From Hyphomonadaceae bacterium BRH_c29 (lineage in GTDB: Bacteria; Pseudomonadota; Alphaproteobacteria; Caulobacterales; Hyphomonadaceae): a stretch of DNA of 64,000 nucleotides. Below are positions 24,089 through 47,161 of the stretch, one piece after another. A model generated the notes under the pieces. That model worked only from the letters and a program-made list of their open reading frames with translations, did not search any database and had not been told where the DNA came from. How positions within the stretch are numbered: position 1 is the first letter of the stretch; every line of letters begins with the position of its first letter. The stretch lies in the NCBI GenBank assembly GCA_000961695.1, contig LADW01000084.1, positions 1 through 64,000 on the forward strand. Reading direction: 5' to 3'. Both the position numbers and the translations under genes were made by a program.

Positions 24089-24529
24089 TTATGAGCGCCG
24101 GTTGATGCGGGTGGACAGAATGACCGACGAGCGGGTGCGCTCGACGCCGTCGATGGCGATCACGGTGTCGACATAGGCTTCAAGGTTTTGCACGGAAGGG
24201 GCCGCGATGACGACGATCAGGTCGAACTCGCCGCTGACCGAGTGCACTTCCTCGACACCCGTCACGCGCGACAGTTTCTGCACCACGGCGTCCATCGTCT
24301 TCGGCGCCACCGTGACCAGAACATGCGCGCTCACCCAGTCTCGCTGGTAGGGCGCCGCCAGGATGCAGGTGTAGGAGTCGATCACACCCGACGTCTCCAG
24401 CCGTTCCAGCCGCTTTTGCGCGGTGGACCTTGAGACCGAGAGCGCTTTGGCAAGATCGGTCACGCTGATGCGGCCCGAGCGTTTGAGCACCTCGATCATC
24501 TCATAGTCGCTGTCCGTCAGCCTGATCAT
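24089..24529 (-). CDS. Lrp/AsnC-family transcriptional regulator
   Basis: 146 residues. An N-terminal winged helix (RISVTDLAKALSVSRSTAQK, about 18-37) is followed by the RAM/AsnC ligand-binding domain with SGEFDLIVVIAAPS and the final SSVILSTRINRR. Such regulators respond to amino acids. It is divergent from the five-gene astC-astA-hglS-type operon across 127 bases that include an inverted repeat GCCTA-ATCA-TAGGC, so it very probably controls that operon and itself. Given the operon content the effector is probably lysine or a related amino acid (inference). Confidence 0.94.
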   Translation of the reverse strand: MIRLTDSDYEMIEVLKRSGRISVTDLAKALSVSRSTAQKRLERLETSGVIDSYTCILAAPYQRDWVSAHVLVTVAPKTMDAVVQKLSRVTGVEEVHSVSGEFDLIVVIAAPSVQNLEAYVDTVIAIDGVERTRSSVILSTRINRRS

Positions 24530-24566
24530 CGCATTTTATCACTTTGCCTATTTTTGGCGCCATATC

Positions 24567-24580
24567 GCCTAATCATAGGC
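24567..24580. promoter_or_regulatory. Inverted repeat, probable Lrp-type operator
   Basis: GCCTA-ATCA-TAGGC with flanking ATAT on both sides (CATATCGCCTA ... TAGGCATTATAT). A further half-site-like TGCCTA lies at 24545-24550. The site is 37 bases from the Lrp start and 76 bases from the astC-like start, in their shared promoter region. Confidence 0.6.
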
Positions 24581-24656
24581 ATTATATCGTTCCCTTTGAC
24601 GATTACAATGATCAGGCAGATGCGGCACCCATGGGCGAACCAGAAAAGAGGTCCCC

Positions 24657-25868
24657 ATGAACCGCGACAGCCTGTTTCCGACTTATGCCCCGCCAGAACT
24701 GCAGTTTTCTCACGGCAAAGGAAGCTGGCTGACCGACACGTCAGGCCGCCAGTATCTCGACTTTATTGCGGGCATTTCCGTCAACACGCTAGGCCATGCA
24801 CACCCTGCCCTGGTCGAAGCGCTGCACACGCAGGCGCTGAAGATCTGGCATCTCAGCAACATGTTCGACGTGCCCGGCCAGGCCGATCTGGCGCGCCGGT
24901 ATTGCGAGCTGACCTTTGCAGATCGCGTCTTCTTCACGAACTCCGGCGCCGAGTCGATCGAATGCGCGCTCAAGAGCGCCCGCAAATTCCACTCCGCGCA
25001 GGGACACCCCGAGCGCATCGACATTGTCGGCTTCGAGGGTGCCTTCCACGGGCGCACCTATGCCTCGGTCAACGCAGCCGGAAACCCGAACTATATCGAG
25101 GGCTTCGGCCCCCGCCTTCCCGGCTACAAGCAAGCCCCGTTCGGAAACATTGATGCCCTCCGTGCAATGACGGATGAGCAGACGGCGGCGATCCTGATCG
25201 AGCCCGTCCAGGGCGAAGGCGGGCTGCGGCCTGCGCCGATGTCCTATCTGGAAGCGCTGCGGGAGCTGTGCGATGAACAAGGCATCCTGCTGATCTATGA
25301 CGAAGTACAATGCGGCGCCGGACGCACCGGACAATTGTTTGCCCACCAATGGAGCGAGTGCGCTGCGCCGGACCTTATGGCGACCGCCAAAGGCGTCGGC
25401 GGGGGCTTCCCGCTCGGCATGTGTCTCGCGACCAGTGAGGTGGCACGCCACATGATGCCCGGCACGCACGGCACCACCTATGGCGGCAACCCGCTCGCGG
25501 TGGCCGTCGGCACCGCTGTCCTCGATCACCTGACCGCACCGGGCTTTCTCGAAAACGTCCGCGAAAGATCGGCGCAGCTGCACGGCGAACTGAGCCGCCT
25601 GAAAGCGAAACATCCGGACCTCGTAGCCGAAGTGCGCGGCAAGGGCCTGCTGGCGGGCTTCAAGCTCGCCAGCGGCGTCAACACGGCAATGCGTGACCGT
25701 CTCCGTGAAAGCGGCCTGCTGGCGGGTGTCGCCGGTGACAACACGGTTCGCCTCGCGCCGCCGCTGAATGTCAGCGCGGCAGAAATCGATCAAGCCATCG
25801 AGATCATCGACAGCGCTCTGGAGAGCCTGAAGCAGGTGCCGGTGGCGGCCGCCGGAACATCGCATTGA
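24657..25868 (+). CDS. astC: Class III aminotransferase, AstC/ArgD-like
   Basis: 403 residues, in the family that transaminates the terminal amino group of N-acylated ornithine. Landmarks are FIAGISVNTLGHAHP, FFTNSGAESIE (phosphate-binding), FEGAFHGRTYAS, IEPVQGEGG, IYDEVQCGAGRTG with the PLP Asp, ATAKGVGGGFPLG with the PLP Lys, and GTTYGGNPLAVAVG. AGAGG precedes the ATG. Its end overlaps the AstA-like start (TGATG). The gene could be called argD on sequence alone; the AstA/AstD partners favour an N-succinyl substrate. With HglS-type genes in the operon, N2-succinyl-lysine is a plausible substrate (inference). The symbol denotes family, not tested substrate. Confidence 0.88.
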   Translation: MNRDSLFPTYAPPELQFSHGKGSWLTDTSGRQYLDFIAGISVNTLGHAHPALVEALHTQALKIWHLSNMFDVPGQADLARRYCELTFADRVFFTNSGAESIECALKSARKFHSAQGHPERIDIVGFEGAFHGRTYASVNAAGNPNYIEGFGPRLPGYKQAPFGNIDALRAMTDEQTAAILIEPVQGEGGLRPAPMSYLEALRELCDEQGILLIYDEVQCGAGRTGQLFAHQWSECAAPDLMATAKGVGGGFPLGMCLATSEVARHMMPGTHGTTYGGNPLAVAVGTAVLDHLTAPGFLENVRERSAQLHGELSRLKAKHPDLVAEVRGKGLLAGFKLASGVNTAMRDRLRESGLLAGVAGDNTVRLAPPLNVSAAEIDQAIEIIDSALESLKQVPVAAAGTSH

Positions 25869-26929
25869 TGGTTTCGTCCGGATACATCATCAGGCCCGTC
25901 AACGCCGGTGATCTGGAAGGGCTTTTCGCCCTCTGCCTGCAGGCTGGCCCTGGTTTTACCAGTCTGCAGGCAGAGGAAACCTATCTGCGCGCGCTGATTG
26001 CCTGCAGCGAAGCCTCGTTCGGATCATCGGGCGTTAGCGCCAAAGGCACCTATTTCCTCGTGATGGAGCATTGCCAGACCGGCGATGTCGTCGGGTGCGC
26101 AAGCGTCAAGTCCGGCGTCGGATCAGACACATTCATGTGCGCTGACTTCGAACTGAACGGCCCATCACAACGCCCCGATGCCCTGACGCTCCGACGGACA
26201 CTGCAGGGCTTTACGGAAGTCGGTTCCCTCTTCCTCCACCCGGCGCACCGCACGTCCGGCGCAGGGCGCTATCTGGCGAGAGCCCGCTACATGCTCATAG
26301 CCACGCGCCCGGACCTGTTCGACAAGCCCATCGTCTCGCAACTGAGAGGCTGGTGCGACGAGGCAGAGTGCTCGCCCTTCTATGATGCGATCTGGTCACC
26401 ACGCCTCGGCCAGACATATGAAGAGTCGGATGCCAAGCTCGCGCGGGACGGCGCCGGGTTTATCCTGGCGGAATTCGACGGCCTGAATGTGCCGCTTGAT
26501 ACACTGGACCAGAAGGCCCTGCACGCCATCGGGCGGCCGCATGACACAGCCGCCGGCGCATTGCGCTTGCTGGCGCAGGAAGGGTTCCACCCCTCCCCCC
26601 TTATCGACATGTCAGACGGCGGCCCGATTGTCGTGTCGACGCTCGCCCAGCTGCACAGTGCACGCACGGCGCGGCCGGTCTTCCTGATGGATGGAACGCC
26701 CGAGCCCTCACCACACATGACGCTGATCGCGTCGTCTTCCCTTCAGGATTTCAGGACCTATGTCGGCTGCGTCAGCATCGACGCGCAAGATCGCGTCATC
26801 TGCCCCGGATCGGCCTTGAGCCAACTCCGCGCAAGCGAAGAGACCCGCTTTCTGATCAGCACACCGCCAACCGCCACCTCTGGCAGAGAAAACCATGCCC
26901 TCACCAATTGGAGCCTCGACAATGTCTGA
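25868..26929 (+). CDS. astA: AstA-like amino acid N-succinyltransferase (divergent)
   Basis: 353 residues. AstA uses succinyl-CoA to acylate the alpha-amino group of arginine or ornithine. The GNAT-like pattern is recognisable: YIIRPVNAGDLEGLFALCLQ, PGFTSLQAEETYL, GSLFLHPAHRTSGAGRYLAR, LRGWCDEAECSPFYDAIW in place of the usual EMRG...SPFW...G, and a late AIGRPHDTAAGALRLLAQEGF. Several positions differ from classical AstA (Trp, Tyr and Ile where MRGV, FW and LG are expected), so another amino acid acceptor is possible. ATG at 25868 overlaps the previous stop; its own stop lies inside the start region of the next gene. Confidence 0.85.
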   Translation: MVSSGYIIRPVNAGDLEGLFALCLQAGPGFTSLQAEETYLRALIACSEASFGSSGVSAKGTYFLVMEHCQTGDVVGCASVKSGVGSDTFMCADFELNGPSQRPDALTLRRTLQGFTEVGSLFLHPAHRTSGAGRYLARARYMLIATRPDLFDKPIVSQLRGWCDEAECSPFYDAIWSPRLGQTYEESDAKLARDGAGFILAEFDGLNVPLDTLDQKALHAIGRPHDTAAGALRLLAQEGFHPSPLIDMSDGGPIVVSTLAQLHSARTARPVFLMDGTPEPSPHMTLIASSSLQDFRTYVGCVSIDAQDRVICPGSALSQLRASEETRFLISTPPTATSGRENHALTNWSLDNV

Positions 26930-28235
26930 GTTCACCCCGTCATGGCGCCTGCGCCAGCAATTCGCAGATCGGCTTTCGCTGATGTATCGCGAGGAAGTTC
27001 CCGCCTATGGATCACTGGTCGACCTCGTCGAGAAGATTAACTCCGCAGACGATCCGACCGCCACCTTTTCCGGCGCCCGACTGGGCCAGGAGCGGCACGG
27101 CGCCATTCGTCTCGCCCTGCCGGAAGAACTCTCCCTCCTCCGCAGAGCCCTCGGCGTGCTGGGCATGTTCCCGGTCGAGTATTACGACCTCGCGGCAGCC
27201 GGACTGCCCGTCCACTCCACCGCATTCCGCCCGATCGAAAGCGACGCGATTGAGCACAGCCCATTTCGTCTTTTTGTCTCGCTGGTGCGGCTTGACCAGA
27301 TCGCCTCTCCGGCGCTGCAAAGCGAAGTGGAGCGCCTTACCCGCGAGCGATCCGTCATATCCCCCGTCGCCCTGCGCTATATCGAACGGGCAGAACACCA
27401 GGGCGGCCTGACTGAAACGGAAGGTGAAGCTTTCCTGGACGCACTCATCGAGACGTTCCGGTGGCGCGGCGAAGCGCTCTCTACGAAGCATATCTATGAT
27501 GCCCTCATCAACGAACATCCTCTGCTTGCGGATATTGTCTGCTTCCCCAATCCGCACATCAATCACCTGACCCCGCGCGTCAGTGACATCGACGCTGCCC
27601 AGCAAAAGATGATCGAGCTTGGGCTGCCCGCCAAGGCTGTCATTGAGGGTCCTCCACGGCGGCAATGCCCTATCCTGCTGCGCCAAACGGCCTTCCGGGC
27701 GCTTGAGGAAGACGTCACCTTCCGCAATCTGGACGGCGTCGACGCCGCCGGCGTTCACACGGCCCGTTTTGGCGAAATCGAGTCGCGTGGCGCAGCGCTC
27801 ACGCGCGCGGGTATGGATCTCTACAATACCTGTTTGGCGAGCGGGGACTTTGACGCCCTTCCGGACGACTGGAATGAATTGCGGACGCGGAAACTGGCCT
27901 GGTTCAAGTACCGCACCGCAACCGGCGCGCGCCTGCCGGCCTCGCTTCCGGAAAGCGCCGAAGCCCTGGAAGACCTGATCGTAAAAGGCGTCATCATCCC
28001 GGAGCCGATTACTTACGAAGACTTTCTACCAGTCAGCGCGGCGGGCATCTTCCGGTCCAATCTGCGATCGGAAGGTAACACCAATACCGACGCGAAAGGC
28101 AACCAGGCCGCTTTCGAAGAAGCCCTCGGCTGCCCCGTCTCCGTGGCTCAAGCTCTGTACGAGCAGGAATCCCGCGCATCGCTGCAACAGCTGTTTGCGT
28201 ATGACCGGCCGAAAGAGCTGGCAGTCCATGAATAG
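26922..28235 (+). CDS. hglS: DUF1338 / HglS-type 2-oxoadipate dioxygenase-decarboxylase
   Basis: 437 residues. HglS is an Fe(II) enzyme that converts 2-oxoadipate to D-2-hydroxyglutarate and CO2 in lysine catabolism. The motifs that carry its metal and substrate residues are intact: QERHGAIRLALP (His59 with Arg63 four residues later, as H70/R74 in the characterised enzyme), NPHINHLTPRVSD (His215), IEGPPRRQCPILLRQTAF, and FGEIESRGAALT with the third metal ligand Glu. It overlaps the AstA-like gene by eight bases upstream and the FAD gene by eight bases downstream. It occupies the place where arginine-specific astB might be expected, but is unrelated to it. Confidence 0.9.
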   Translation: MSEFTPSWRLRQQFADRLSLMYREEVPAYGSLVDLVEKINSADDPTATFSGARLGQERHGAIRLALPEELSLLRRALGVLGMFPVEYYDLAAAGLPVHSTAFRPIESDAIEHSPFRLFVSLVRLDQIASPALQSEVERLTRERSVISPVALRYIERAEHQGGLTETEGEAFLDALIETFRWRGEALSTKHIYDALINEHPLLADIVCFPNPHINHLTPRVSDIDAAQQKMIELGLPAKAVIEGPPRRQCPILLRQTAFRALEEDVTFRNLDGVDAAGVHTARFGEIESRGAALTRAGMDLYNTCLASGDFDALPDDWNELRTRKLAWFKYRTATGARLPASLPESAEALEDLIVKGVIIPEPITYEDFLPVSAAGIFRSNLRSEGNTNTDAKGNQAAFEEALGCPVSVAQALYEQESRASLQQLFAYDRPKELAVHE

Positions 28236-29646
28236 GTCCCTGCCAGCCGCCCTTGCTGAACGAGGCGATATAGATCTCGATCCGCAGATCATCGAAACCT
28301 ATTGCCGGGGCGGACGCGGAGAAAAAGGCACCGCCATGTTCGTGGCGCGCCCCCGGTCAACGCAGGACGCCTCGGACATCATTCGCGCGTGCGTCGAACA
28401 GGGCATTCAGCTTGTGCCGCAATCGGCCAGGACCGGGCTTGTCGGCGCAAGTGTTCCGGACTCGGAAGGCCAACACGCGGTTCTCAGTCTTGAGCGGATG
28501 ACGGGCGACTTCCGCCTCGACCGGATCAACCGAACCGTCACGTGCAGTGCAGGCCTTCGCCTGTCGGATATCAACACCCGCCTCGCCCCCGAAGCGCTTT
28601 GCCTTCCGATTGATGTTGGATCAGATCCCTGCATCGGCGGCATGGTGGCCACCAATACCGGCGGGAGCCGCCTGATGCGCCACGGCGATGTCCGGCGCCA
28701 TGTGCTTGGTCTGACCGTCGTCCTCGGCGATTCCAAAGGGACGATTGTCCGGCTCGGCGGCGCCTTGCGCAAGACCGCGACCGGCCCGGACTGGAAGCAA
28801 CTCTTCGTCGGAACCGGCGCCAGCTTCGGCGTGATTACCGAATGCACTTTCAATGTCGAACCCACGCCCAAACACAGAGCCACCGCGTTGATTGCACTGC
28901 CAGACGAGAGCGCGCTTCCAGACCTCCTTCTGGAACTGGAACGGCGCTTTGGCTCCCTCCTGTCGGCGCTCGAGTTCATGTCTGCCAATGCAATGCGGGC
29001 GGCACATTCACACGTCCCGTCTCTGAGGAAACCATTTGGCGGCGACTTGCCGGACATTGCGCTGTTGGTTGAGCTTTCCTGCGATTGGCCTCTGGATGAG
29101 GCGGATCGGTTGCTGGATGACATGCTCATCGGCGGGCTGGTCAATATCGCGGAGTCCGGCGCGGCAAACATGGCCGATGTCGTGGTCGGCCGGGCCGAGG
29201 AAGTCTGGGCCATCCGGCACGCTCTGTCTGAAGGCGTCCGCAAGCGGGGCCGTCTCTATGCGTTCGATCTGTCCTTTCGGAGAGGCGATGTGCTGAGATT
29301 CAGGGCGGCCATGAAAACCCAACTCGCCCAGCTGTTTCCGGATATCGAAATCTGCGACTTCGGACATGTCGGCGATGGTGGCATCCACTTCAACCTTGTC
29401 GATCATATCGCCGCAAGTGACTGGTCGCCAGGCCGTGAGCGGACGATCCGCGATACCGTCATCAAAGCTGCCGTCGAAGACTTCGATGGCAGCTATAGCG
29501 CGGAACATGGCATCGGCCCGGTGAACTACCGGTACTTTGACACTTACGCGTCTGCCGAAACCAGACACTTCTCCGCCGCACTGGAGGCTGTGACCTCCGG
29601 AAAGCGTCTCGGACGTGTCCACTTCTCCCCGGAGCAAACACAATGA
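28228..29646 (+). CDS. FAD-linked oxidase, D-2-hydroxyglutarate dehydrogenase-like
   Basis: 472 residues. An N-terminal FAD_binding_4 domain (about 25-205) shows LVPQSARTGLVGASV, CLPIDVGSDPCIGGMVATNTGG and LFVGTGASFGVITE; the C-terminal oxidase domain has FGHVGDGGIHFNL with metal-type His residues, and SAEHGIGPVN. This is the D-lactate/D-2-hydroxyglutarate/glycolate oxidase group (D2HGDH, GlcD). Coupled by an eight-base overlap to an HglS-type gene, its expected substrate is D-2-hydroxyglutarate, giving 2-oxoglutarate with electrons passed to ETF or quinone. That assignment rests on context; D-lactate is the alternative. The stop overlaps the AstD-like start by four bases. Confidence 0.87.
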   Translation: MNRSLPAALAERGDIDLDPQIIETYCRGGRGEKGTAMFVARPRSTQDASDIIRACVEQGIQLVPQSARTGLVGASVPDSEGQHAVLSLERMTGDFRLDRINRTVTCSAGLRLSDINTRLAPEALCLPIDVGSDPCIGGMVATNTGGSRLMRHGDVRRHVLGLTVVLGDSKGTIVRLGGALRKTATGPDWKQLFVGTGASFGVITECTFNVEPTPKHRATALIALPDESALPDLLLELERRFGSLLSALEFMSANAMRAAHSHVPSLRKPFGGDLPDIALLVELSCDWPLDEADRLLDDMLIGGLVNIAESGAANMADVVVGRAEEVWAIRHALSEGVRKRGRLYAFDLSFRRGDVLRFRAAMKTQLAQLFPDIEICDFGHVGDGGIHFNLVDHIAASDWSPGRERTIRDTVIKAAVEDFDGSYSAEHGIGPVNYRYFDTYASAETRHFSAALEAVTSGKRLGRVHFSPEQTQ

Positions 29647-31085
29647 CCGATCCGTCCCATTCAGGCGATTGCTTCATCACCGGCGAATGGATGTCCGGAG
29701 AGGGCGCCCCCTTCCAGAAGACCTGCCCGGCGAACGGAGACGTGGTCTGGACTGGCCGAGCCGCGTCTGGCGCGCAAGTGGGCCAGGCCGTCAAGGCAGC
29801 TCGCGCCGCTTTCGAGACATGGGGGCGAACAGAACAGGTTGCCCGGCAGGTGGTTCTTGAGCGGTATGCGGAAGAATTGCGCCTCAGAAAAGAAGCTATG
29901 GCGCTCGCCATCAGCCGCGACATGGGCAAGCTGCTCAAGGAAGCGCGCACCGAAGTCGATACCATGGTCGCCAAGGTCGCGGTTTCCATCAAGGCGCAGG
30001 CCGACCGCGCCGGGGAACACAGCCTGCCAGCCGATTTCGGGCATCTGGACCTGACGCATAGACCCCACGGCGTGATGGCGGTTTTCGGGCCTTACAACTT
30101 CCCCGGCCACCTGCCCAACGGCCATATTGTGCCTGCTCTACTGGCGGGAAATACGTGCGTGTTTAAAGCCTCTGAACTGGCACCTTCGGTGGCGCCTCTC
30201 ATGATGGATGCCTTCCGCGCAGCAGGCCTCCCCCCCGGCTGCGTCAATCTTGTACAGGGCGGACGGGAAACCGGCGGAGACTTGCTCGCTGCGGATATCA
30301 ACGGCCTCCTGTTCACAGGGTCCGAACACACCGGCCGCATGTTCCATCGCTTCTTAGCTGGCCGGCCAGAAGTCATTCTGGCTCTGGAGATGGGCGGCAA
30401 CAATCCGCTGATCGTCTGGGATTCGGCAGACGCCGAAGCAGCCGCAGACATTGCGATCCAGTCCGCCTATCTGACCACGGGACAAAGATGCTCCTGCGCA
30501 AGGCGCCTCATTCTGCCCAAAGGGCGCTTCGGGGATCAGGTTCTGGAATCCATCGTAGATCGCGCGAGGCGTCTCTCTATCGGCCCGTGGAATGACGACA
30601 CCGCCTTCATGGGTCCACTCGTCAGCGCACATGCTGCGGCTCAGGCGGTCGCGTTCCAGAACAAGCTGATTGCGGGCGGCGCGCGCGCCATCCTCCCGCT
30701 GGAACAGAGAGACAAAAATCTCGGCTTTGTCTCCGCCGGGGTGGTCGACATGTCGGACGCACCCCCCATGGACGAGGAGATGTTCGGCCCGCTGCTGCAA
30801 GTCTACCGTGCCGATGACATCGACCAAGCTATTACGCTCGCTAACGCGACGCGGTTCGGACTGGCAGGCGGTCTTGTGTGTGACGATCTCCCGACATGGG
30901 ATCTTGTGAGAAACCGGCTGCGCGCCGGCATTCTCAACCTGAACCGGCCAACCGTCGGCGCCAGCGGCCAGATGCCTTTCGGCGGACCGGGCGCATCAGG
31001 AAACTTCCGTCCGGGCGCCTACTATGCGGCTGACTATTGCGCCTGGCCACAGGCCTCGCAGGTGGCGCCCTCAAGCCTTGGGTAA
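29643..31085 (+). CDS. astD: AstD-like N-succinyl-glutamate-semialdehyde dehydrogenase
   Basis: 480 residues. The AstD signature is strong: VFGPYNFPGHLPNGHIVPALLAGN, LLFTGSEHTGRMFH, LEMGGNNPLIV with the general-base Glu, TTGQRCSCARRL with the catalytic Cys, EEMFGPLLQVY, and the C-terminal PFGGPGASGNFRPGAYYAADY. AstD oxidises N-succinylglutamate semialdehyde to N-succinylglutamate with NAD+. In this operon a one-carbon-longer substrate (N-succinyl-2-aminoadipate semialdehyde from lysine) is possible. It ends the five-gene operon and is followed by an inverted repeat. Confidence 0.92.
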   Translation: MTDPSHSGDCFITGEWMSGEGAPFQKTCPANGDVVWTGRAASGAQVGQAVKAARAAFETWGRTEQVARQVVLERYAEELRLRKEAMALAISRDMGKLLKEARTEVDTMVAKVAVSIKAQADRAGEHSLPADFGHLDLTHRPHGVMAVFGPYNFPGHLPNGHIVPALLAGNTCVFKASELAPSVAPLMMDAFRAAGLPPGCVNLVQGGRETGGDLLAADINGLLFTGSEHTGRMFHRFLAGRPEVILALEMGGNNPLIVWDSADAEAAADIAIQSAYLTTGQRCSCARRLILPKGRFGDQVLESIVDRARRLSIGPWNDDTAFMGPLVSAHAAAQAVAFQNKLIAGGARAILPLEQRDKNLGFVSAGVVDMSDAPPMDEEMFGPLLQVYRADDIDQAITLANATRFGLAGGLVCDDLPTWDLVRNRLRAGILNLNRPTVGASGQMPFGGPGASGNFRPGAYYAADYCAWPQASQVAPSSLG

Positions 31086-31138: not shown

Positions 31139-32317
31139 TCACGCCTCGATCACGATCGGATTCTGGATCTGATACTTGTCGATCGCATCCTCATCGAGCT
31201 CCACGCCCCAGCCCGGCCCTTCGGGCAGATGCGCAAAGCCGTCCTCGTAAACGATCTCATCCTTGACCAGATCGTCTTCCATCATAATGTGGCCCTGCAA
31301 TTCGGTCGCGTGCCGGATGTTGCGGGCCCGCGCAGCATGCATGTGCAGGATCACCGCGCTGCCTATGCCGGAAGGCTGATTGTGTAGCACGACATCAAGC
31401 CCCTTGGCCGCCGCATAGTCGATGGCCTTCAGCCCCGCCGTCATACCGCCGGGCCTTTCCGGGTTGATACCGAACGTGCGCACCGCCCCCATTTCCGCGA
31501 GCGTCACGATATCGCGCATGCCGAAGGCGCTTTCATGGGCCATCAGCGGCACATTTGTGCGGGATTGAACCCAGGCCATTCCAACGAAATCATCGCCTTT
31601 GACCGGCTGTTCCGCATAGTCGATGCCATAAGGCGCGATGGCTTCAATTGCTGCCAGCGCTTCATTCGGACTGTAGGCCTGATTGTAGTCGACGCGCAGC
31701 CCGGCTTCCGGCCCGATCAGTTCCCGGACGGCCTTGATGATCTCTGCATCCTTGTGCGCGCCATCGCCAAGCTTGCACCGGAACGACTTCATACCGGCCT
31801 GAAGACCCAGCCCGACAACATGGCGGATGGTTTCCACATTGGTCAGTGGCAGAACCATGCTCATCGGAATGCGGTCGATCTGCTTCCCGCCGCACAGATC
31901 GTGCACGGGGCGGTTGATCGTTCGCGCCGCGACGTCATACAGCGCCAAGTCCAGCACGCCCTTTGCCATTTCATTCCGGGCGACATTGTTGTCCATCTTG
32001 TCATGGACCAGTTCCATGTCGAAGGCTGATCGGCCGAGCACAAACCGGGCAAGGTGATCCCGGATCACTTCCGCCATCATGGCTGGCGAAGCAGAGCTCT
32101 CAACCAGCCAGACATAGGAATCGCCAATGCCAACAACGCCGTTTTCCGTGGTCATCCGGCAGACGAGAAAGTCCGCGCCGAGCCAGTGGTCATCTACCTT
32201 GAGGCCCATGGCGACTTTGCCGCTGCCGCCTTGCAACATGTCACGGATATATTCCTTGAAAGGAACAAAGACCGTGAAAAGCTCAATCTTGCGGATCGGA
32301 TCCTGTGATGCACGCAT
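31139..32317 (-). CDS. Enolase-superfamily enzyme (mandelate racemase/muconate-lactonizing-like)
   Basis: 392 residues from the ATG at 32317. The N-terminal capping domain is followed by the barrel: SFRCKLGDG on the second strand (Lys base candidate), LRVDYNQA (metal Asp), IDYAEQPV (metal Glu), PLMAHESAFG (third metal acid) and VVLHNQPSGIGSA (His on the seventh strand). Members abstract a proton alpha to a carboxylate for racemisation, epimerisation, dehydration or cycloisomerisation. It starts four bases after the DUF2817 stop, so both are on one transcript with the amidohydrolase, suggesting action on a peptide or N-acyl amino acid product (inference). Confidence 0.9.
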   Translation of the reverse strand: MRASQDPIRKIELFTVFVPFKEYIRDMLQGGSGKVAMGLKVDDHWLGADFLVCRMTTENGVVGIGDSYVWLVESSASPAMMAEVIRDHLARFVLGRSAFDMELVHDKMDNNVARNEMAKGVLDLALYDVAARTINRPVHDLCGGKQIDRIPMSMVLPLTNVETIRHVVGLGLQAGMKSFRCKLGDGAHKDAEIIKAVRELIGPEAGLRVDYNQAYSPNEALAAIEAIAPYGIDYAEQPVKGDDFVGMAWVQSRTNVPLMAHESAFGMRDIVTLAEMGAVRTFGINPERPGGMTAGLKAIDYAAAKGLDVVLHNQPSGIGSAVILHMHAARARNIRHATELQGHIMMEDDLVKDEIVYEDGFAHLPEGPGWGVELDEDAIDKYQIQNPIVIEA

Positions 32318-32321
32318 GTTC

Positions 32322-33413
32322 TTATACCTTTTCTCTCTGAAGCTGTCCGAGACCACCCAACGCCTGACCGAAGACCTGTTCGCCCCGCGTCAGGACCGCG
32401 TCTCGCCACGTATCGCTATCCGGATAGAAAGCGCTCATGACGCGCCCTTTGATCTCCCGCCCGAGCGCGCTGTTCACATCCCCATGATGCACCAGCCAAT
32501 TGTCTTCGATCATGGCCCGCAACACGATTTCCGGCGGTTCTGTGCCGTATTCCAGCGTCATCGGGATGACCCAGGCCTTGTCCACCTGTTGTTCCATTCC
32601 ACCGTTCAGATAGCCGCCCAGAATGGTGTCGGCCCGGCTGGCGGGGCGCGGGGTCACCAGCATGTCACCGAACCAGTCGGCGGTGACTTTCTTGTGTGGC
32701 TCATCCGGATTGGCAGCCATCATCAGCGCGCCGTATCCGGACGGTCCGAGTCCTGTATGCACATCGATCTGAACGACGATGTTCGCGTGCCCAAGCAGTT
32801 GCTTCCAGATCGCTTCGATGGTGCGACGCGACCAGGTAGGCTGAATGCCACCGTACTGAACGCCCTTGGGGAACTCGTACTGCCCGCCCGAAATGGCCTT
32901 CATGAAGCTGAGGAAATCCATGGAGCGCTGCAGCGCCTGGACTTTCTCCATGATCACCTCAATCGCGCCGGGAGGCATTTCAACCGGGTTCAGCAAGGCG
33001 TCGAGCCCCTGGTAGGCCTCGTTGGCCGGCAGGTCTTCGGAGAAGTCGACAAAGTTCCGGTTCAGATCGACATTATCTTCGGTCACGCGGCGAAAATGGG
33101 AGAACCCGTGCGGATTGATGCCGTGAACCAGGAGGACGGCAACGTCGTCCGGAAGAGAAGTTACCTGCTCGACAAACTGACTCTGAAGCGCAGACCCGCA
33201 AAGTCCCTCAGCACCATGCGTTCCGCTGCAAATGACCAGAACGCGCGATGCGGTTTCAGGCCCCTTCCAGAACGTGTCGATAAAGATCGGGAGATGATCC
33301 AGACCTTTGAGGGGGTGCTCATGAGACGCATGCTGCCAACCTCCGGCTTTGTCTGTGTGAGACAAGAGCTTGTCCCGGGCTGTCCGGTAATCCGGCGAAA
33401 AGTATGAGGACAC
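32322..33413 (-). CDS. DUF2817 / M14-like zinc carboxypeptidase or deacylase
   Basis: 363 residues with a GTG start, supported by AAGGAG six bases upstream. Zinc residues are visible: CSGTHGAEGLCGS has the HxxE pair, VQIDVHTGLG has the later His, and MTLEYGTEP has the candidate catalytic Glu. DUF2817 belongs to the M14 clan with carboxypeptidases and succinylglutamate desuccinylase/aspartoacylase. There is no signal peptide, so it acts in the cytoplasm on imported peptides or N-acyl amino acids. It lies between the amidohydrolase (49 bases upstream) and the enolase-superfamily gene (four bases downstream). An N-succinyl-amino-acid desuccinylase role for the nearby Ast-like operon is possible but unproven. 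Confidence 0.88.
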   Translation of the reverse strand: MSSYFSPDYRTARDKLLSHTDKAGGWQHASHEHPLKGLDHLPIFIDTFWKGPETASRVLVICSGTHGAEGLCGSALQSQFVEQVTSLPDDVAVLLVHGINPHGFSHFRRVTEDNVDLNRNFVDFSEDLPANEAYQGLDALLNPVEMPPGAIEVIMEKVQALQRSMDFLSFMKAISGGQYEFPKGVQYGGIQPTWSRRTIEAIWKQLLGHANIVVQIDVHTGLGPSGYGALMMAANPDEPHKKVTADWFGDMLVTPRPASRADTILGGYLNGGMEQQVDKAWVIPMTLEYGTEPPEIVLRAMIEDNWLVHHGDVNSALGREIKGRVMSAFYPDSDTWRDAVLTRGEQVFGQALGGLGQLQREKV

Positions 33414-33462
33414 GTTACACTCCTTAATTTGAGTATTCGTAGTGTTGAGATGGCGCCTCTAC

Positions 33463-35061
33463 TCAGGCACCAAAGAAGATGCCGCCAATCATGGTCCTGA
33501 GGACTTTGAGGTTAGCTATTCGGGCCGCAGGCACAGCCAGCGGATTCTGATCGAGCATTACGATATCCGCCACCTTACCCACTTCGAGCGTGCCTTTTTC
33601 AGCTTCTTCAAACTGGATGAAGGCGGCATTTCGCGTGAACATCGCCAGCGCTTCTTCCGGTGTCAGCCCTTGCTCGGGGTGAAAGCCGCCGCGGTTGACG
33701 GCATAGTCCATCGCCGCAATCACATCCGTCGCCTCAATGGGCGCATCGGACGACCCGACGACCGGAATGCCCGCATCAAAGAAGTCGCGCAGAGGATACG
33801 CCATGCCGGAGCGGCCCGGCCCAAGGCGCGCGGGCAGCCAGTCTTTCTCGGACCGGATGAACAGCGGCTGGGTACAAATCTGCAAACCAAGCGAAGCAAT
33901 CCGTCCGATCAGTTCCTTCGGCGCAATTGAGGCATGCTCAATGCGGTGGCGGTGATCCGGCTTTGGATACTCCGTCAAAAGACGCTCGAACAGGCGCACA
34001 CAATTGGCGATGCCCTGATCGCCAACCGCGTGAATGCAGACCTGAAACCCCGCCAGATGCGCAGAGCTCATCCGGCTGTAAATCTCGTCCTCGTCCAACG
34101 TCATATAGCCGTGCGTGCAGGCCTTGTCGGTGTAAGGCTCGCTCATGCAGGCGGTGCAGGACCCGAAGGTTCCGTCTGCGAAGATCTTGAACGCGCGCGT
34201 CTTTGCCTTGTTATCCGGCGCGTTCAGCGGCGTCTGGATCAGGGCATTGATCCCGTCCAGTGTCTTCCCGATGACGATGGCATAGATCGACTGCGGAATA
34301 TTCTCCCGCAACGCCTGGACTACCATGCTTTCCATGCGGGCAGACGCGCCGCCGGGACCTTCTTCGTCGCTCTGCAACATTGCACCGATGGAAGTTATCC
34401 CATTGCGCGCCAGACCGTCGAACAGGCCTTGGCTCGCCTCGATCATGCGTGCGGGCGACGGCGTCGGCATGTGCGCAAGCGGCAGGGCAACGGCCTTTTC
34501 GTTGAACACGCCGCTCAGCGTTCCGTCAGCATAGTAACTGATCTCCCCTCCTTCGGGGCTTTGCGTCTCCGGACCGATGCCCACGCCCTCAAGGAGGCAC
34601 GTGTTCGCCACGACGCAATGTCCGTCACGCGCATAGATCAGCACTGGGCGATCCGGAAACAGAGCGTCGAGTTCGTGGCGCGTCAACTGCTCACCCGGAG
34701 GTAATCGTTTGCTCTCGAACTGAACGCCGACGATCCATTCGGACCTGTCCACGCGCTCTGCGTGCTGTAACAGGCGGTGGCTGATGTCGGCCATATTCCT
34801 TGCGCGATCGAGATCCGCGCTCATCGCGAAAAAGATCATCGGCAAAGGATGGAGGTGGGCGTCAATAAACCCCGGAAGGATCGCCGCGCCCGCAAGATCG
34901 ACGTTGACAGGCTGGATGTCGCGGCTCGCGACCCATTGGCGGCCTGCTTCCAGCTTGCCCAGGAAAGCAATCCGCCCGCCCTCCGTCACGAGGCATTCTG
35001 GACTGCCCCCGTCCTTCACCATCGTCACAATGGAGCCGTTGTGAAAGAGATAGGTCTCCAC
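33463..35061 (-). CDS. YtcJ-type metal-dependent amidohydrolase
   Basis: 532 residues with a GTG start and GAGGA upstream. Amidohydrolase_3 landmarks: ILPGFIDAHLHPLP (HxH metal pair), YARDGHCVVANT, FKIFADGTFGS, VCIHAVGDQGI, RIEHASI, VVGSSDAPIE with the metal Asp, and the C-terminal GKVADIVMLDQNPL. No signal peptide. Members hydrolyse formamides, N-acyl or urea-type bonds; substrates are mostly unknown. It heads the unit amidohydrolase - DUF2817 - enolase-superfamily, divergent from an MFS transporter across a region with a perfect palindrome. Confidence 0.9.
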   Translation of the reverse strand: METYLFHNGSIVTMVKDGGSPECLVTEGGRIAFLGKLEAGRQWVASRDIQPVNVDLAGAAILPGFIDAHLHPLPMIFFAMSADLDRARNMADISHRLLQHAERVDRSEWIVGVQFESKRLPPGEQLTRHELDALFPDRPVLIYARDGHCVVANTCLLEGVGIGPETQSPEGGEISYYADGTLSGVFNEKAVALPLAHMPTPSPARMIEASQGLFDGLARNGITSIGAMLQSDEEGPGGASARMESMVVQALRENIPQSIYAIVIGKTLDGINALIQTPLNAPDNKAKTRAFKIFADGTFGSCTACMSEPYTDKACTHGYMTLDEDEIYSRMSSAHLAGFQVCIHAVGDQGIANCVRLFERLLTEYPKPDHRHRIEHASIAPKELIGRIASLGLQICTQPLFIRSEKDWLPARLGPGRSGMAYPLRDFFDAGIPVVGSSDAPIEATDVIAAMDYAVNRGGFHPEQGLTPEEALAMFTRNAAFIQFEEAEKGTLEVGKVADIVMLDQNPLAVPAARIANLKVLRTMIGGIFFGA

Positions 35062-35128
35062 GTTTCGTTCCTCGCATTACCCATACCTGCATTCGCAGAA
35101 AGAGATGACAGGTGCGCCGGAAGATGTC

Positions 35129-35144
35129 TATAGTAAATACTATA
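35129..35144. promoter_or_regulatory. Perfect inverted repeat, probable TetR operator
   Basis: TATAGTA-AA-TACTATA, seven-base arms, lies in the 107-base gap between the divergent amidohydrolase (start 35061) and MFS transporter (start 35169). Its size and symmetry fit a TetR-family dimer; the nearest candidate is the TetR gene at 36528-37118. Confidence 0.65.
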
Positions 35145-35168
35145 CTATCCGCAGAAAGTGAGACCCAC

Positions 35169-36527
35169 ATGACAAACCCGGCGACGGAAAGCAGACGAGG
35201 ATTGCCGCTTTCGGGAATCTGGTGGGCCAGCTTCGACTGGGCGAGAAGCCCGTTCTACTATGTTGTCATCATCTATGTGTTCACGACCTATTTTGCCGAG
35301 ACCGTGATCGGCGACAGCGCCCGTGGTCAGGCGATTGTCAGCACGACCGTGACGATTGGCGGTCTGATCATGGCCCTGATCGCGCCGCTCCTCGGAGGCT
35401 ATATGGACAGAGGCGGTGCCAAGAAACCTGTGCTGTTCATCCTGATGCTTGTTCTGGCGATATCGAGTGCCGCTTTGGTCTTCGTCATTCCCGGAGCACT
35501 TTATTCTGTCCTGCTTGGCATGACGCTTCTGGTGATCGCGGGGTGTGCCTATTCCGTGTCGGAACTCTTTCACAACGCCCTGCTGCCAGCAGCCGGAAAC
35601 CACCGCCAGATCCCTCTCATCTCGGGGCTCGGACTCTCCATGGGCAGCCTGGCTGCCGTCGTGGTGCTGCTTCTGGTGATACACCTCGTAGACGCCCCGC
35701 CGTTTGGATTGGAAACGCATGATATCGCGCGCGGATCAGGCCTGATCTGCGCCATCTGGATGCTGGTTTTCCTGATCCCATTCTGGCTGGGCATGCCCGA
35801 TCATTTCCGCGAGGGCGCGACCTGGAAAGGCGCACGCCGTCTTCCGGAGACCTGGTCGCCGCTGCGCAGCACGCGCCAGCTGTTCCGGGACTATCCAGCG
35901 ATCATGCGCTTCCTGATGGCCCGGATGATATTTATGGACGGTCTTACGGCTCTCTTTGCCATCGGCGCGGTTTACGTCGCCGGCACACTCGGATGGACAC
36001 AAGGTCAGACGGCGCTGATGGGCGTTGTCGCGACCGTTTCAGCTGTCGCCGGCGGCTTCCTTGGCGGCTTTCTGGACCGGTCATTCGGGCCGCGAAATGC
36101 GATCCTCATCGAACTGTTCTCGATCACGGCGATTTTCTGCTTTCAGATCAGCATCTCGCAAGACGCCCTGCTCTTTGGCCTCATCAGCACGCCTGAAGTT
36201 GCCACAGGTTGGGAAATCATGCCGCGAAGCATAGACGTGATCTACCTGGCCACGGTCATCCCGCTCAGCGCCTTCATCATCGGGGCATATAGTTCATGCC
36301 GCTCACTGCTGGTCTTTCTCAGCCCGCCCGACAAGCTCGGGCAATTCTTCGGGATCTACGCCATGATCAGCACTGTGACAGTGTGGATCGGCCCCGGGCT
36401 GGTTGCATTGGTGACGTTTGCAACCCATAGCCAGAAACTCGGCTTCAGCAGTCTCGTCATCCTGTTTCTGGCAGGCAGCCTGATCATGCTCGGCGTCAGG
36501 AGCCCCGAGCGGTCAACGATCTCCTGA
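35169..36527 (+). CDS. MFS transporter, UMF1/Atg22-like
   Basis: 452 residues, about 12 membrane helices. The N-terminus has WWASFDWARSPFYYVVIIYVF, the UMF1-type first helix with the Asp-Trp pair, followed by GLIMALIAPLLGGYMDRGGAKKP, the MFS loop 2-3 signature. The frame is open 19 residues upstream, but MTNPATESRR is the likely start. UMF1 proteins are related to vacuolar Atg22 amino-acid effluxers. It is divergent from the amidohydrolase operon and converges exactly on the TetR gene (no bases between stops), so it should carry the operon's substrate or product. Confidence 0.9.
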   Translation: MTNPATESRRGLPLSGIWWASFDWARSPFYYVVIIYVFTTYFAETVIGDSARGQAIVSTTVTIGGLIMALIAPLLGGYMDRGGAKKPVLFILMLVLAISSAALVFVIPGALYSVLLGMTLLVIAGCAYSVSELFHNALLPAAGNHRQIPLISGLGLSMGSLAAVVVLLLVIHLVDAPPFGLETHDIARGSGLICAIWMLVFLIPFWLGMPDHFREGATWKGARRLPETWSPLRSTRQLFRDYPAIMRFLMARMIFMDGLTALFAIGAVYVAGTLGWTQGQTALMGVVATVSAVAGGFLGGFLDRSFGPRNAILIELFSITAIFCFQISISQDALLFGLISTPEVATGWEIMPRSIDVIYLATVIPLSAFIIGAYSSCRSLLVFLSPPDKLGQFFGIYAMISTVTVWIGPGLVALVTFATHSQKLGFSSLVILFLAGSLIMLGVRSPERSTIS

Positions 36528-45385: not shown

Positions 45386-46435
45386 TCACGATCCGCCTCC
45401 ATCTTCAGCGGCCAGGATCGCCTTGAACTTCTCCAGCGCGATATTCTTTCCGCAAAGGACAACCACTGCCGTCTTGCCAGCGAGCCGGGGCGCGCATTTC
45501 TCAAGCGCCGCGAGGGCCAGAGCCGCCGAGCCTTCGACGATCAGCCCGTCGCCCATGGCGAGATCCCTCATCGAGCGGGCAATTTCCAACTCGCTCACCA
45601 GAACAGGTGTGGGATCGAGCGTATGAGCCAGATTGATCGTGATCGCGCCGGGCTCAACACCGCCCGCTGTGCCATCCGCGAGTGTCGGTGTTTCATTGAA
45701 GTCGACTGCTCGCCCGGCACGCATCGAGTGCAACAGGCTCTGCGCATTCTCGGGCCAGGCAGCAATCACCTCAACATCTGGCGCTTCCTTGCGAAGGACA
45801 GCGCCGATGCCAGACAGCAGTCCGCCACCACCAACGGATACAACAACCGCATCGACTTTGCGGCCATCATCAAGGATCTCGGCGGCACAGCCCCCCTGTC
45901 CGGCGATGACGTCCACATCATTGTAAGGCGACACGTAGACGGCGCCACTTTCGAAAGCGAGCCGGCGCGCCAGAAGCTCGACGGTCAGCGGATCGGCATC
46001 GTGAAGCTCAACTTTCGCCCCGAGCGACCGGATCGCCTCGATCTTCCGGATAGAGGCGTTCTGCGTTGCATGAACCGTAATCGGAATACCTGCCTCGGAC
46101 GCGACAGTGGCCAGAGCCAGGCCGTGATTTCCGGTCGAGGCCGTGACAATCCCAAGCGCTTTCTCGCTATCCGACATGTTGGAGAGCTTGTTGTAAGCCC
46201 CCCGGAACTTGAATGAGCCGGTCGGCAGAAATTGTTCGCACTTCAGCAAAACGCGGCAGCCAAAACGCTGCGACAGGAATTCGCTTTCGACCAGTGGGCT
46301 GGGCTGCGCACGATCGCGCAGACGCGCCACGGCGCCGCGTGCAAGACGGGCCACAGTCTCCAGGGACGGGACGTCCGCAGCGGCTGCTGGGCTGCCCTTC
46401 CCGTCCTTTATCTTGTCCTGTTTGGTCGTGGTCAT
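45386..46435 (-). CDS. PLP fold-type II dehydratase (threonine/hydroxyaspartate dehydratase-like)
   Basis: 349 residues. LLKCEQFLPTGSFKFRGA carries the PLP Lys, TASTGNHGLALA the Asn/Gly substrate-phosphate loop, and VVVSVGGGGLLSGIG the glycine-rich loop. No C-terminal ACT regulatory domain, so it is not biosynthetic IlvA. The group includes threonine dehydratase, serine racemase, 3-hydroxyaspartate dehydratase (BhcB) and hydroxyectoine-pathway EutB. Divergent from a DauR-like regulator and an ornithine-cyclodeaminase-family gene, it fits a pair that makes and reduces an imino acid, as BhcB/BhcD do (inference). Confidence 0.88.
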   Translation of the reverse strand: MTTTKQDKIKDGKGSPAAAADVPSLETVARLARGAVARLRDRAQPSPLVESEFLSQRFGCRVLLKCEQFLPTGSFKFRGAYNKLSNMSDSEKALGIVTASTGNHGLALATVASEAGIPITVHATQNASIRKIEAIRSLGAKVELHDADPLTVELLARRLAFESGAVYVSPYNDVDVIAGQGGCAAEILDDGRKVDAVVVSVGGGGLLSGIGAVLRKEAPDVEVIAAWPENAQSLLHSMRAGRAVDFNETPTLADGTAGGVEPGAITINLAHTLDPTPVLVSELEIARSMRDLAMGDGLIVEGSAALALAALEKCAPRLAGKTAVVVLCGKNIALEKFKAILAAEDGGGS

Positions 46436-46471
46436 GATTCCGGCTTGCCTCTCTGATGAATTGACGATATT

Positions 46472-46482
46472 TCTAAATTAGA
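46472..46482. promoter_or_regulatory. Palindrome in the dehydratase / DauR-like divergent promoter
   Basis: TCTAA-A-TTAGA, five-base arms, at the centre of the 78-base AT-rich gap between the dehydratase start (46435) and the regulator start (46514). It is the likely operator of the DauR-like protein. Confidence 0.5.
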
Positions 46483-46513
46483 TTTTTTGTCAACCACGAT
46501 TCAGGAGAGACTT

Positions 46514-47161
46514 TTGACCGAACTGTCAGACTCCCAGGCATTCACTCCCGGCCTTGAGGCACATTTTGCAATCGCCGATGGCATCGCTGCCCTGTTCGCT
46601 CCCTATGTGGAAGTCGTGATCCACGATCTGGCGACGGAGGAAGTCGCCTATATTTCCAATGATCTATCCCGCCGGGTCGCAGGCGACCCCTCGCAACTCG
46701 ACGAAATCGGCTTCGATCCAGACCTTCGTGTCATCGGCCCCTACCAGAAAACGAACTGGGACGGCCGGCGCATGAAATGCATTTCGATCGTTCTTCGCGA
46801 AAAAGACACGCCGATCGGCCTGATGTGCCTGAACGTGGACGTCACCCAGTTTGATCTGGTCCGGCGCGCGCTCGACGGTTTTCTGGGCGCTGAACCGCGC
46901 AATGAGGGCGTCCAGGCCCTGTTCGTTCACGACTGGCATGAGAAGATCAACCAGTTCGTGGCGGACTGGTGCGCCACGCGAGACATCCGCATCGAGCAGA
47001 TCGACAAGGCATCGCGCCGTGAACTGATCAGTGCCCTGCGCGATAGCGGCGCACTGGAACAGCGCCGCGCGCCTGCCTACATCGCCCGCATTCTCGGCGT
47101 CAGCCGCGCGACCGTGTACAACGAACTCGCAGCCCTGAAACAAGGCAGCAGCTCGACGTGA
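46514..47161 (+). CDS. YheO/DauR-like PAS-HTH transcriptional regulator
   Basis: 215 residues from a TTG at 46514 with AGGAG six bases upstream; an in-frame TTG at 46487 is poorer. The N-terminal YheO-type PAS domain (about 20-115) includes PYVEVVIHDLATEEVAYI, WDGRRMKCISIVLR and GLMCLNVDV; the C-terminal HTH_22 shows RRAPAYIARILGVSRATVYN. In Pseudomonas DauR controls D-arginine catabolism genes (dauBA), DauB being of the ornithine-cyclodeaminase family like the next gene here. The stop overlaps the next start (GTGA). Confidence 0.9.
   Translation: MTELSDSQAFTPGLEAHFAIADGIAALFAPYVEVVIHDLATEEVAYISNDLSRRVAGDPSQLDEIGFDPDLRVIGPYQKTNWDGRRMKCISIVLREKDTPIGLMCLNVDVTQFDLVRRALDGFLGAEPRNEGVQALFVHDWHEKINQFVADWCATRDIRIEQIDKASRRELISALRDSGALEQRRAPAYIARILGVSRATVYNELAALKQGSSST

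Follow-up and report, generated by a model that had tools for sequence, protein, structure and literature searches.

Why are genes of the arginine succinyltransferase (AST) pathway interlaced with genes for the breakdown of 2-oxoadipate? The question is raised by a locus on contig LADW01000084.1 of Hyphomonadaceae bacterium BRH_c29, of which positions 1 to 64,000 were analysed (64,000 nucleotides, the window). Five intact genes occupy 24657-31085 on the plus strand, in the order AstC, AstA, HglS, D-2-hydroxyglutarate dehydrogenase (D2HGDH) and AstD. Starts and stops read from the DNA gave overlaps of 1, 8, 8 and 4 bases between successive genes and placed the AstD stop at 31085, which confirms the order, strand and 1- to 8-base overlaps reported in the first-pass annotation of this DNA.

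Judged from sequence, the operon probably encodes a lysine-degrading variant of the AST pathway. The first-pass annotation had proposed the same, and independent comparative evidence now supports it: AstA stands beside a DUF1338 protein, the family of HglS, or beside glutaryl-CoA dehydrogenase (GcdH) or a 2-oxo-acid dehydrogenase E1 in two lineages. This comparative evidence is the strongest support for lysine as the substrate. We further consider it fairly likely that N2-succinyl lysine catabolism was assembled at least twice from duplicated AST genes, feeding either known exit from 2-oxoadipate.

Genes and protein families of the operon

The first gene (24657-25868, plus strand) encodes an AstC/ArgD-like class III aminotransferase (PF00202, 384 bits). 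It exceeds the cut-offs of PRK01278, named acetylornithine transaminase (567.7 bits, cut-off 372), and of TIGR00707 (439.9 bits, cut-off 410) and stays below that of the AstC model TIGR03246 (409 bits, cut-off 610). Its best PDB matches are the acetylornithine aminotransferases 2ord and 2e54 and the succinylornithine transaminase 4adb. The second gene (25868-26929, plus strand, ATG at 25868, 1-base overlap with AstC) encodes an AstA paralogue, here called AstA2, with about 224 bits to PF04958. AstA2 scores below the arginine AstA equivalog TIGR03244 (157 bits, cut-off 391) and its sole PDB match is 1yle, the alpha chain of arginine N-succinyltransferase. Plasmid records gave 84 matches to AstA2, all below 60% identity, and the 30 listed lie at 25-34%. 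The last gene (29643-31085, plus strand, ATG at 29643, 4-base overlap) encodes an AstD-type semialdehyde dehydrogenase with 629 bits to TIGR03240 (cut-off 579). Family matches were thus found for all three AST-type genes that had been named in the operon.

The third gene (26922-28235, plus strand, ATG at 26922, 8-base overlap) encodes HglS, a predicted 2-oxoadipate dioxygenase/decarboxylase of the DUF1338 family and the sole HglS-type match of its genome. The match to PF07063 reaches 430 bits (cut-off 25), and the better of two matches to the NCBIfam HglS equivalog NF049974 reaches 501 bits, below the cut-off of 550. The protein aligns with the Pseudomonas putida hydroxyglutarate synthase 6w1g and with 2rjb, and the motifs ERHGAIR, NHLTPR and GEIESRG pointed out earlier are present and align with 6w1g. 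In the alignments HglS and its close relatives retain the H/H/E metal ligands (HGAIR, NH and GE positions), the substrate arginine and the V-S pair. As described in passages of the study of the P. putida enzyme (PMC7286885), Arg74 forms a salt bridge to the distal carboxylate of 2-oxoadipate and the R74A variant is inactive, Val402 and Ser403 contribute hydrogen bonds in 2-oxoadipate binding, and characterised HglS was active on 2-oxoadipate alone among seven 2-oxoacids. The DUF1338 protein of the operon would likewise act on 2-oxoadipate.

The fourth gene (28228-29646, plus strand, ATG at 28228, 8-base overlap) encodes an FAD-linked D2HGDH with the domains FAD_binding_4 (PF01565) and FAD-oxidase_C (PF02913). 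Its best PDB match is human D2HGDH (6lpn, 161 bits), and it can be aligned with D2HGDHs encoded near HglS in other alphaproteobacteria. Domains and closest solved relative agree with the D-2-hydroxyglutarate dehydrogenase-like enzyme of the first description.

A proposed route from lysine to 2-oxoglutarate

In the route that we propose, AstA2, as a putative lysine N2-succinyltransferase, would succinylate the alpha-amino group of lysine with succinyl-CoA, and AstC would transaminate the epsilon-amine of the resulting N2-succinyl-lysine to give N2-succinyl-2-aminoadipate 6-semialdehyde. With its alpha-amino group succinylated, the semialdehyde could not cyclise to piperideine-6-carboxylate (P6C). 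AstD would convert the semialdehyde to N2-succinyl-2-aminoadipate, from which an unlinked desuccinylase would release succinate and 2-aminoadipate, and an unlinked general transaminase would turn the latter into 2-oxoadipate. HglS would then decarboxylate and hydroxylate 2-oxoadipate to D-2-hydroxyglutarate and CO2, and D2HGDH would yield 2-oxoglutarate. In relatives, E1 and GcdH would replace the HglS and D2HGDH steps. We infer the substrates, the activities and the two unlinked steps.

The leading candidate for the desuccinylase is an M20 hydrolase encoded on contig C28 of the same genome. NCBIfam names it only as hydrolase (PRK07338, above cut-off), and no PDB match was found up to E 1e-20. 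Less likely, and only a candidate, is a DUF2817 protein encoded outside the operon and convergent to it (32322-33413, minus strand; PF10994, 319 bits), which matches PF24827 (AstE_AspA_cat) with 26 bits, just above the cut-off of 25, and has no PDB match up to E 0.01. DUF2817 also lies beside the operon in Hyphomonas jannaschiana; no match was found in the stretch L050.

A separate astB cluster in the same genome

The first-pass annotation had described astB as absent. None is present in the operon, but the genome does have an astB, on contig C28 (545 bits, above cut-off), clustered with an AstA, an AstD and the M20 hydrolase. The AstA of this cluster scores 393 bits versus about 223-224 for that of the operon, and the two AstD proteins are 65% identical. 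Because the separate cluster has astB, its own AstA and its own AstD, the operon is a paralogous second module beside it. Arginine as the main substrate of the operon was rejected on this ground. No AstC was seen in the available stretch of the C28 cluster, where the contig ends about 450 bases past the M20 gene; AstC may therefore be shared between the two. The earlier concern that an astB elsewhere could form a full arginine pathway using the operon genes is thus met by separate AstA and AstD genes, but persists for AstC. Here, as in Hirschia, the astB cluster includes an M20 hydrolase, and in neither was an AstE match seen.

A second AstA copy is common where AstA2 occurs. We surveyed 25 genomes, 22 with an AstA2-type locus and three astB-type controls (L083, L084, L090; L numbers denote loci, G numbers genomes); some species overlap the family set used below. 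An astB match was found in 23 of the 25 (six above the curated cut-off), and 23 have at least two AstA matches, one AstA of G500 being in two pieces. From the coordinates, another AstA lies within 4 kb of the astB match on one contig in 18 of the 22 AstA2-type genomes. HglS-type matches occur in 13 of the 25 genomes; the L057 and L059 genomes gave none, and neither did any of the eight searched genomes that carry GcdH/E1-type loci. Two genes in this material may be pseudogenes or reflect sequencing errors: the astB match at G495:C3:361666-362943 has one internal TAG, and the AstA at L092:8004-9000 is in two pieces.

AstA2 and the exits from 2-oxoadipate within the family

Among 105 genomes of the family, 8 have an HglS-type gene and 99 an AstA. 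The HglS gene directly adjoins AstA in seven of the eight (G000, G040, G043, G056, G084, G033 and G034); in the eighth (G035) the two are on separate contigs. The exact five-gene operon is present in four genomes (G000, G040, G043, G056), and in G084 a contig begins with four of the five genes. Among named organisms, the closest relatives found are H. jannaschiana VP2 and Hyphomonas oceanitis SCH89, whose copies of the five genes are 83-92% identical, which suggests that the window itself comes from a Hyphomonas. A divergent AstA of 217-234 bits occurs in six genomes (G000, G040, G043, G056, G084 and G089).

GcdH relatives at E 1e-120 or better were found in only 8 of the 105 genomes. The window genome has no match at E 1e-120, and the G089 genome has three relatives at this level or better. 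All eight family genomes with an AstA2 locus, the two Hirschia-type genomes included, have HglS or GcdH, versus 7 of the remaining 97 (Fisher p 2e-8; collapsing close relatives, the sole correction for relatedness, gives 1e-5).

The Hirschia-type genomes show further peculiarities. In L044 and L045 the AstB-adjacent AstA, clustered with AstB, M20 and AstD, is only 25-27% identical to the window AstA and sits on a long tree branch. In L046, which comes from G035, a third member of the Hirschia-type genus, HglS occurs with no AstA, AstC or D2HGDH match within the surrounding 20 kb.

Recurrence beyond the family and the AstA tree

A scan of the collection with the AstA2 alignment yielded 45 loci from named genomes, some of the same species as the family genomes. 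DUF1338 lies beside AstA in 12 of them, GcdH in 17 and E1 in 3 more; 7 are astB-type clusters and 6 fall in no class. Two of these six (L059, L066) are truncated at contig ends, and the other four (L057, L086, L093, L096) show none of these modules. The HglS subfamily of the window accounts for five loci (two Hyphomonas, an alphaproteobacterial metagenome-assembled genome, Ponticaulis, and Hirschia, which also has the convergent astB cluster). The other seven, from Sphingosinicella and Sphingomonas, hold a second, divergent DUF1338 subfamily with 73-98 bits to PF07063. Their order is DUF1338-(D2HGDH)-AstC-AstA-AstD, with D2HGDH in three of the seven and no AstD match in one (L081). The one protein of this subfamily tested has 3iuz as best PDB match, and the H..R/H/E positions are retained in both members that were aligned. 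Searched for across genomes, the adjacency of AstA and DUF1338 without astB thus recurs in two AstA lineages and with two DUF1338 subfamilies.

One acyl-CoA dehydrogenase family lies beside AstA in the 17 GcdH loci (16 Hellea/Caulobacterales genomes and L078). For the L079 protein the closest PDB structures are glutaryl-CoA dehydrogenases (3gnc, 605 bits; human 1siq, 538 bits), and its 16 counterparts share 69-96% identity with it. A fused E1 occurs together with GcdH in L071, L075 and L078 and with no visible GcdH in L060, L072 and L085, where the contig ends within or just past E1. No locus in the neighbourhood comparison combines HglS with GcdH, as alternative exits should behave. As a side observation, fused E1 alpha-beta, a protein of about 345 amino acids and the GcdH relative form a conserved set beside AstA (L071:3109-7470, L075:9016-13464, L078:9045-13477). 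The protein of about 345 amino acids has at most weak acyltransferase similarity, and the set recurs in distant genomes.

The AstA tree comprises 71 rows and was made with a quick method that gave a long-branch warning, so that deep placements are uncertain. Nine of the 80 extracted rows were left out: L134 (two rows), L147 and L150 are the same genes as L090 (two rows), L083 and L084; L089 and L091 (two rows each) are further Halomonas rows; and L059 is truncated. Five of the 30 AstA loci L007-L036 entered the tree. Outside the row set are L058, which covers the genome region already represented by L045, L092 with its split AstA, and L093.

Clade A, which holds the window AstA, has 28 rows with an SH-like approximate likelihood ratio test (SH-aLRT) support of 98: 7 are linked to HglS, 19 to GcdH/E1, 2 to neither as far as seen and none to astB. 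For its two Hirschia rows, an astB cluster that has an AstA gene of its own runs convergently at a distance of 5-7 kb. Clade B (sphingomonad rows and L078; 8 rows, SH-aLRT 98) has HglS-type links in 6, a GcdH/E1 link in 1 and neither seen in 1, and its neighbours on the tree are two AstAs from Caulobacter astB clusters. Two AstA lineages are each combined with both known exits from 2-oxoadipate. This is expected if AstA2 makes N2-succinyl-lysine; we see nothing that would account for it with ornithine or arginine as the substrate.

With 27 rows labelled astB-linked, 33 exit-linked and 11 left unlabelled, the labels need two changes on the tree, compatible with either two separate gains or a gain together with a reversal. 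A single origin of the HglS/GcdH-linked AstAs is therefore not favoured. The unlabelled rows include L007, L008, L009, L011, L014, L137 and L145, which are M20-AstA-AstD clusters with no astB in the stretch; the L137 genome has no astB match and the L145 genome has one on another contig.

Residues were compared with L059, L096 and the second Halomonas-type rows left aside. Clade A AstAs differ from the others at positions 34 (Q), 93 (D), 135 (Y), 172 (Y/F) and 180 (L) of the window AstA. At position 243, 24 of the 28 clade A rows and all eight of clade B have Ser, and 27 of 35 others have E or D. As candidate specificity residues these positions are only a lead.

HglS surroundings and P6C/AASA dehydrogenase

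In a class-wide sample, 16 of 385 genomes have an HglS-type gene. Stretches of 4.6-17 kb around the 15 genes other than that of the window contained no AstA match. An aldehyde dehydrogenase is nearby in 8 of these loci and D2HGDH in 5. All six aldehyde dehydrogenases tested, one per locus, exceed the curated cut-off for P6C/aminoadipate semialdehyde (AASA) dehydrogenase. A good share of the HglS genes in this sample therefore lie close to a lysine gene, and the AST-type genes of the window stand where P6C/AASA dehydrogenase often does.

The window genome, which is 94.6% complete, has no P6C/AASA dehydrogenase over the NF050084 cut-off of 730 bits (best E 2e-71). Within the family the enzyme exceeds the cut-off in 18 of 105 genomes, and it does not in six of the seven with adjacent AstA2 and HglS, the window genome included. 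Absence of the enzyme as a general signature was not upheld, since 7 of the 25 surveyed genomes have it.

Alternative readings of the operon

Several observations weigh against lysine as the substrate. Neither a desuccinylase nor a 2-aminoadipate transaminase was recognised in these operons, and AstC scores best as acetylornithine transaminase. Set against the substrate residues R386, T390 and K401 of human D2HGDH, the operon enzyme by our reading of the alignment keeps R, has S for T and Ala for K; the five HglS-neighbouring D2HGDHs aligned have Ala (four) or Gly (one) in the place of Lys401. HglS stands beside AstA in only one of the 16 HglS genomes of the class sample, that of the window. 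The 16 Hellea-type GcdH loci show no AstC or AstD match near AstA2, and none of the five acyl-CoA dehydrogenases scanned gave an NCBIfam call for glutaryl-CoA dehydrogenase above cut-off. G033 has an unlinked GcdH in addition to the linked HglS. In Hirschia, AstC-AstA2-HglS converges on AstD-M20-AstB-AstA, for which reason AstC or AstD may be shared with the arginine cluster there. P6C/AASA dehydrogenase, the established other way of degrading lysine, exceeds the cut-off in G056, in 6 of the 22 AstA2-type genomes and in one of the three controls, five of these last seven being sphingomonads. G089 (L057) has AstC-AstA2-AstD alone, with no HglS or D2HGDH. Finally, a passage of PMC9007349, citing earlier work, describes Pseudomonas AruFG as accepting both arginine and ornithine.

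The last two points, together with an AstD that exceeds the cut-off for succinylglutamate semialdehyde dehydrogenase, speak for the best surviving alternative, catabolism of ornithine or of ornithine and arginine, which we nevertheless regard as unlikely. AstA2 would then succinylate ornithine, AstB would be needless, AstC and AstD would lead to N-succinylglutamate, and HglS and D2HGDH would be passengers, completing a breakdown of lysine that starts along a different route. Against it stand the position of HglS and D2HGDH between AstA and AstD, with overlapping frames, and the joining of two DUF1338 subfamilies and of GcdH/E1 to AstA in two lineages. Another route to 2-oxoadipate through P6C/AASA dehydrogenase is not apparent in the window genome or in most of the AstA2-HglS family genomes (see above), a search that did not extend to other 2-oxoadipate sources.

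The exit enzymes constrain nothing beyond the six-carbon end product, so a lysine relative (D-lysine, hydroxylysine or an N6-modified lysine) could take the same succinylated route to 2-oxoadipate or a derivative. We judge this improbable. It would be helped by the enolase-superfamily protein encoded next to the operon, whose best PDB match is 2p88. This is an N-succinyl-Arg/Lys racemase, although its PDB entry names it just as a member of the mandelate racemase/muconate lactonizing enzyme family. However, the neighbour is on the other strand, H. jannaschiana is the one other genome in which it was seen next to the operon, and our reading of the alignment shows no clear counterpart of the strand-6 lysine typical of such racemases. 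Lysine itself is the simplest source. Plasmid records gave 1329 matches to the enolase-superfamily protein, all below 60% identity, the 20 listed lying at 27-32%.

That unrelated amino-acid genes came together by chance, or form a silent assembly, as the rarity of the exact operon in the family might suggest, is very improbable given overlapping genes with intact frames, conservation down to about 50% AstA identity and the assembly of the same families in other orders elsewhere.

Relation to known systems

The preferred reading, lysine degradation through N2-succinyl intermediates, shares parts with several known systems. Like the AST pathway (E. coli astCADBE, Pseudomonas aru), the operon has AstC, AstA and AstD families, with AstC and AstA first and AstD later, and would use a succinyl protecting group. 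Unlike it, the operon has no AstB or AstE, its AstA falls below the arginine equivalog cut-off, HglS and D2HGDH are inserted, and a separate astB cluster is present in the genome. With D-lysine catabolism of P. putida and the plant exit (HglS/DUF1338, then D2HGDH) it shares the HglS catalytic residues, D2HGDH and the end in 2-oxoglutarate, but the upstream genes are AstA, AstC and AstD in place of P6C/AASA dehydrogenase or the saccharopine route. The 2-oxoadipate dehydrogenase/glutaryl-CoA dehydrogenase exit of animals and many bacteria is echoed by the GcdH, sometimes with E1, beside AstA2 in Hellea-type relatives, whereas the window operon has HglS in the place of GcdH. In LysW-dependent alpha-aminoadipate lysine biosynthesis (Thermus, Sulfolobus) the alpha-amino group is protected while an ArgD/LysJ-type enzyme handles the epsilon end; the operon route would run degradatively, with a succinyl group in place of the LysW protein.

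All enzymes come from known families, and the pathway would be a re-targeted variant. A limited search of open-licence PMC papers found no description of lysine catabolism via N-succinyl intermediates. A 2017 paper (PMC5653290) puts the annotated lysine degradation pathways in MetaCyc at eleven. If our reading is true, bacteria have one more, and arginine-enzyme annotations of AstA, AstC and AstD are wrong in the clades defined here. A complete protecting-group pathway would have switched its target amino acid from one of five carbons to one of six, seemingly on two occasions, as a degradative counterpart of protected-intermediate lysine biosynthesis. The reading also names a directly assayable enzyme, lysine N2-succinyltransferase.

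Regulator and neighbouring genes

An Lrp/AsnC-type regulator is encoded divergently from the operon (24089-24529, minus strand; PF01037, 61 bits). The nearest NCBIfam model is LysM (88 bits, below the cut-off of 180). The intergenic region between lrp and astC (24530-24656) is the presumed control region, and an alignment of five genomes showed likeness mainly confined to Hyphomonas. A divergent Lrp also adjoins AstA or AstC in Hyphomonas, Hirschia, Robiginitomaculum and nearly all Hellea-type loci, though not in L086. The Lrp protein may control the operon.

Downstream, 31139-36527 encodes the enolase-superfamily protein, DUF2817 and an Amidohydro_3 protein on the other strand, followed by an MFS/Atg22-like transporter on the plus strand; this block is kept beside the operon in H. 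jannaschiana. At 45386-48114, a threonine/serine dehydratase-like gene (PRK06815, above cut-off) is paired with an ornithine cyclodeaminase-family gene on the opposite strand, near an NhaC-type antiporter and TonB receptors. The protein encoded at 61844-63205 has a beta-CASP metallo-beta-lactamase fold and scores 375 bits to the type VII CRISPR Cas14 model, far below the cut-off of 800; it is probably an ordinary beta-CASP ribonuclease.

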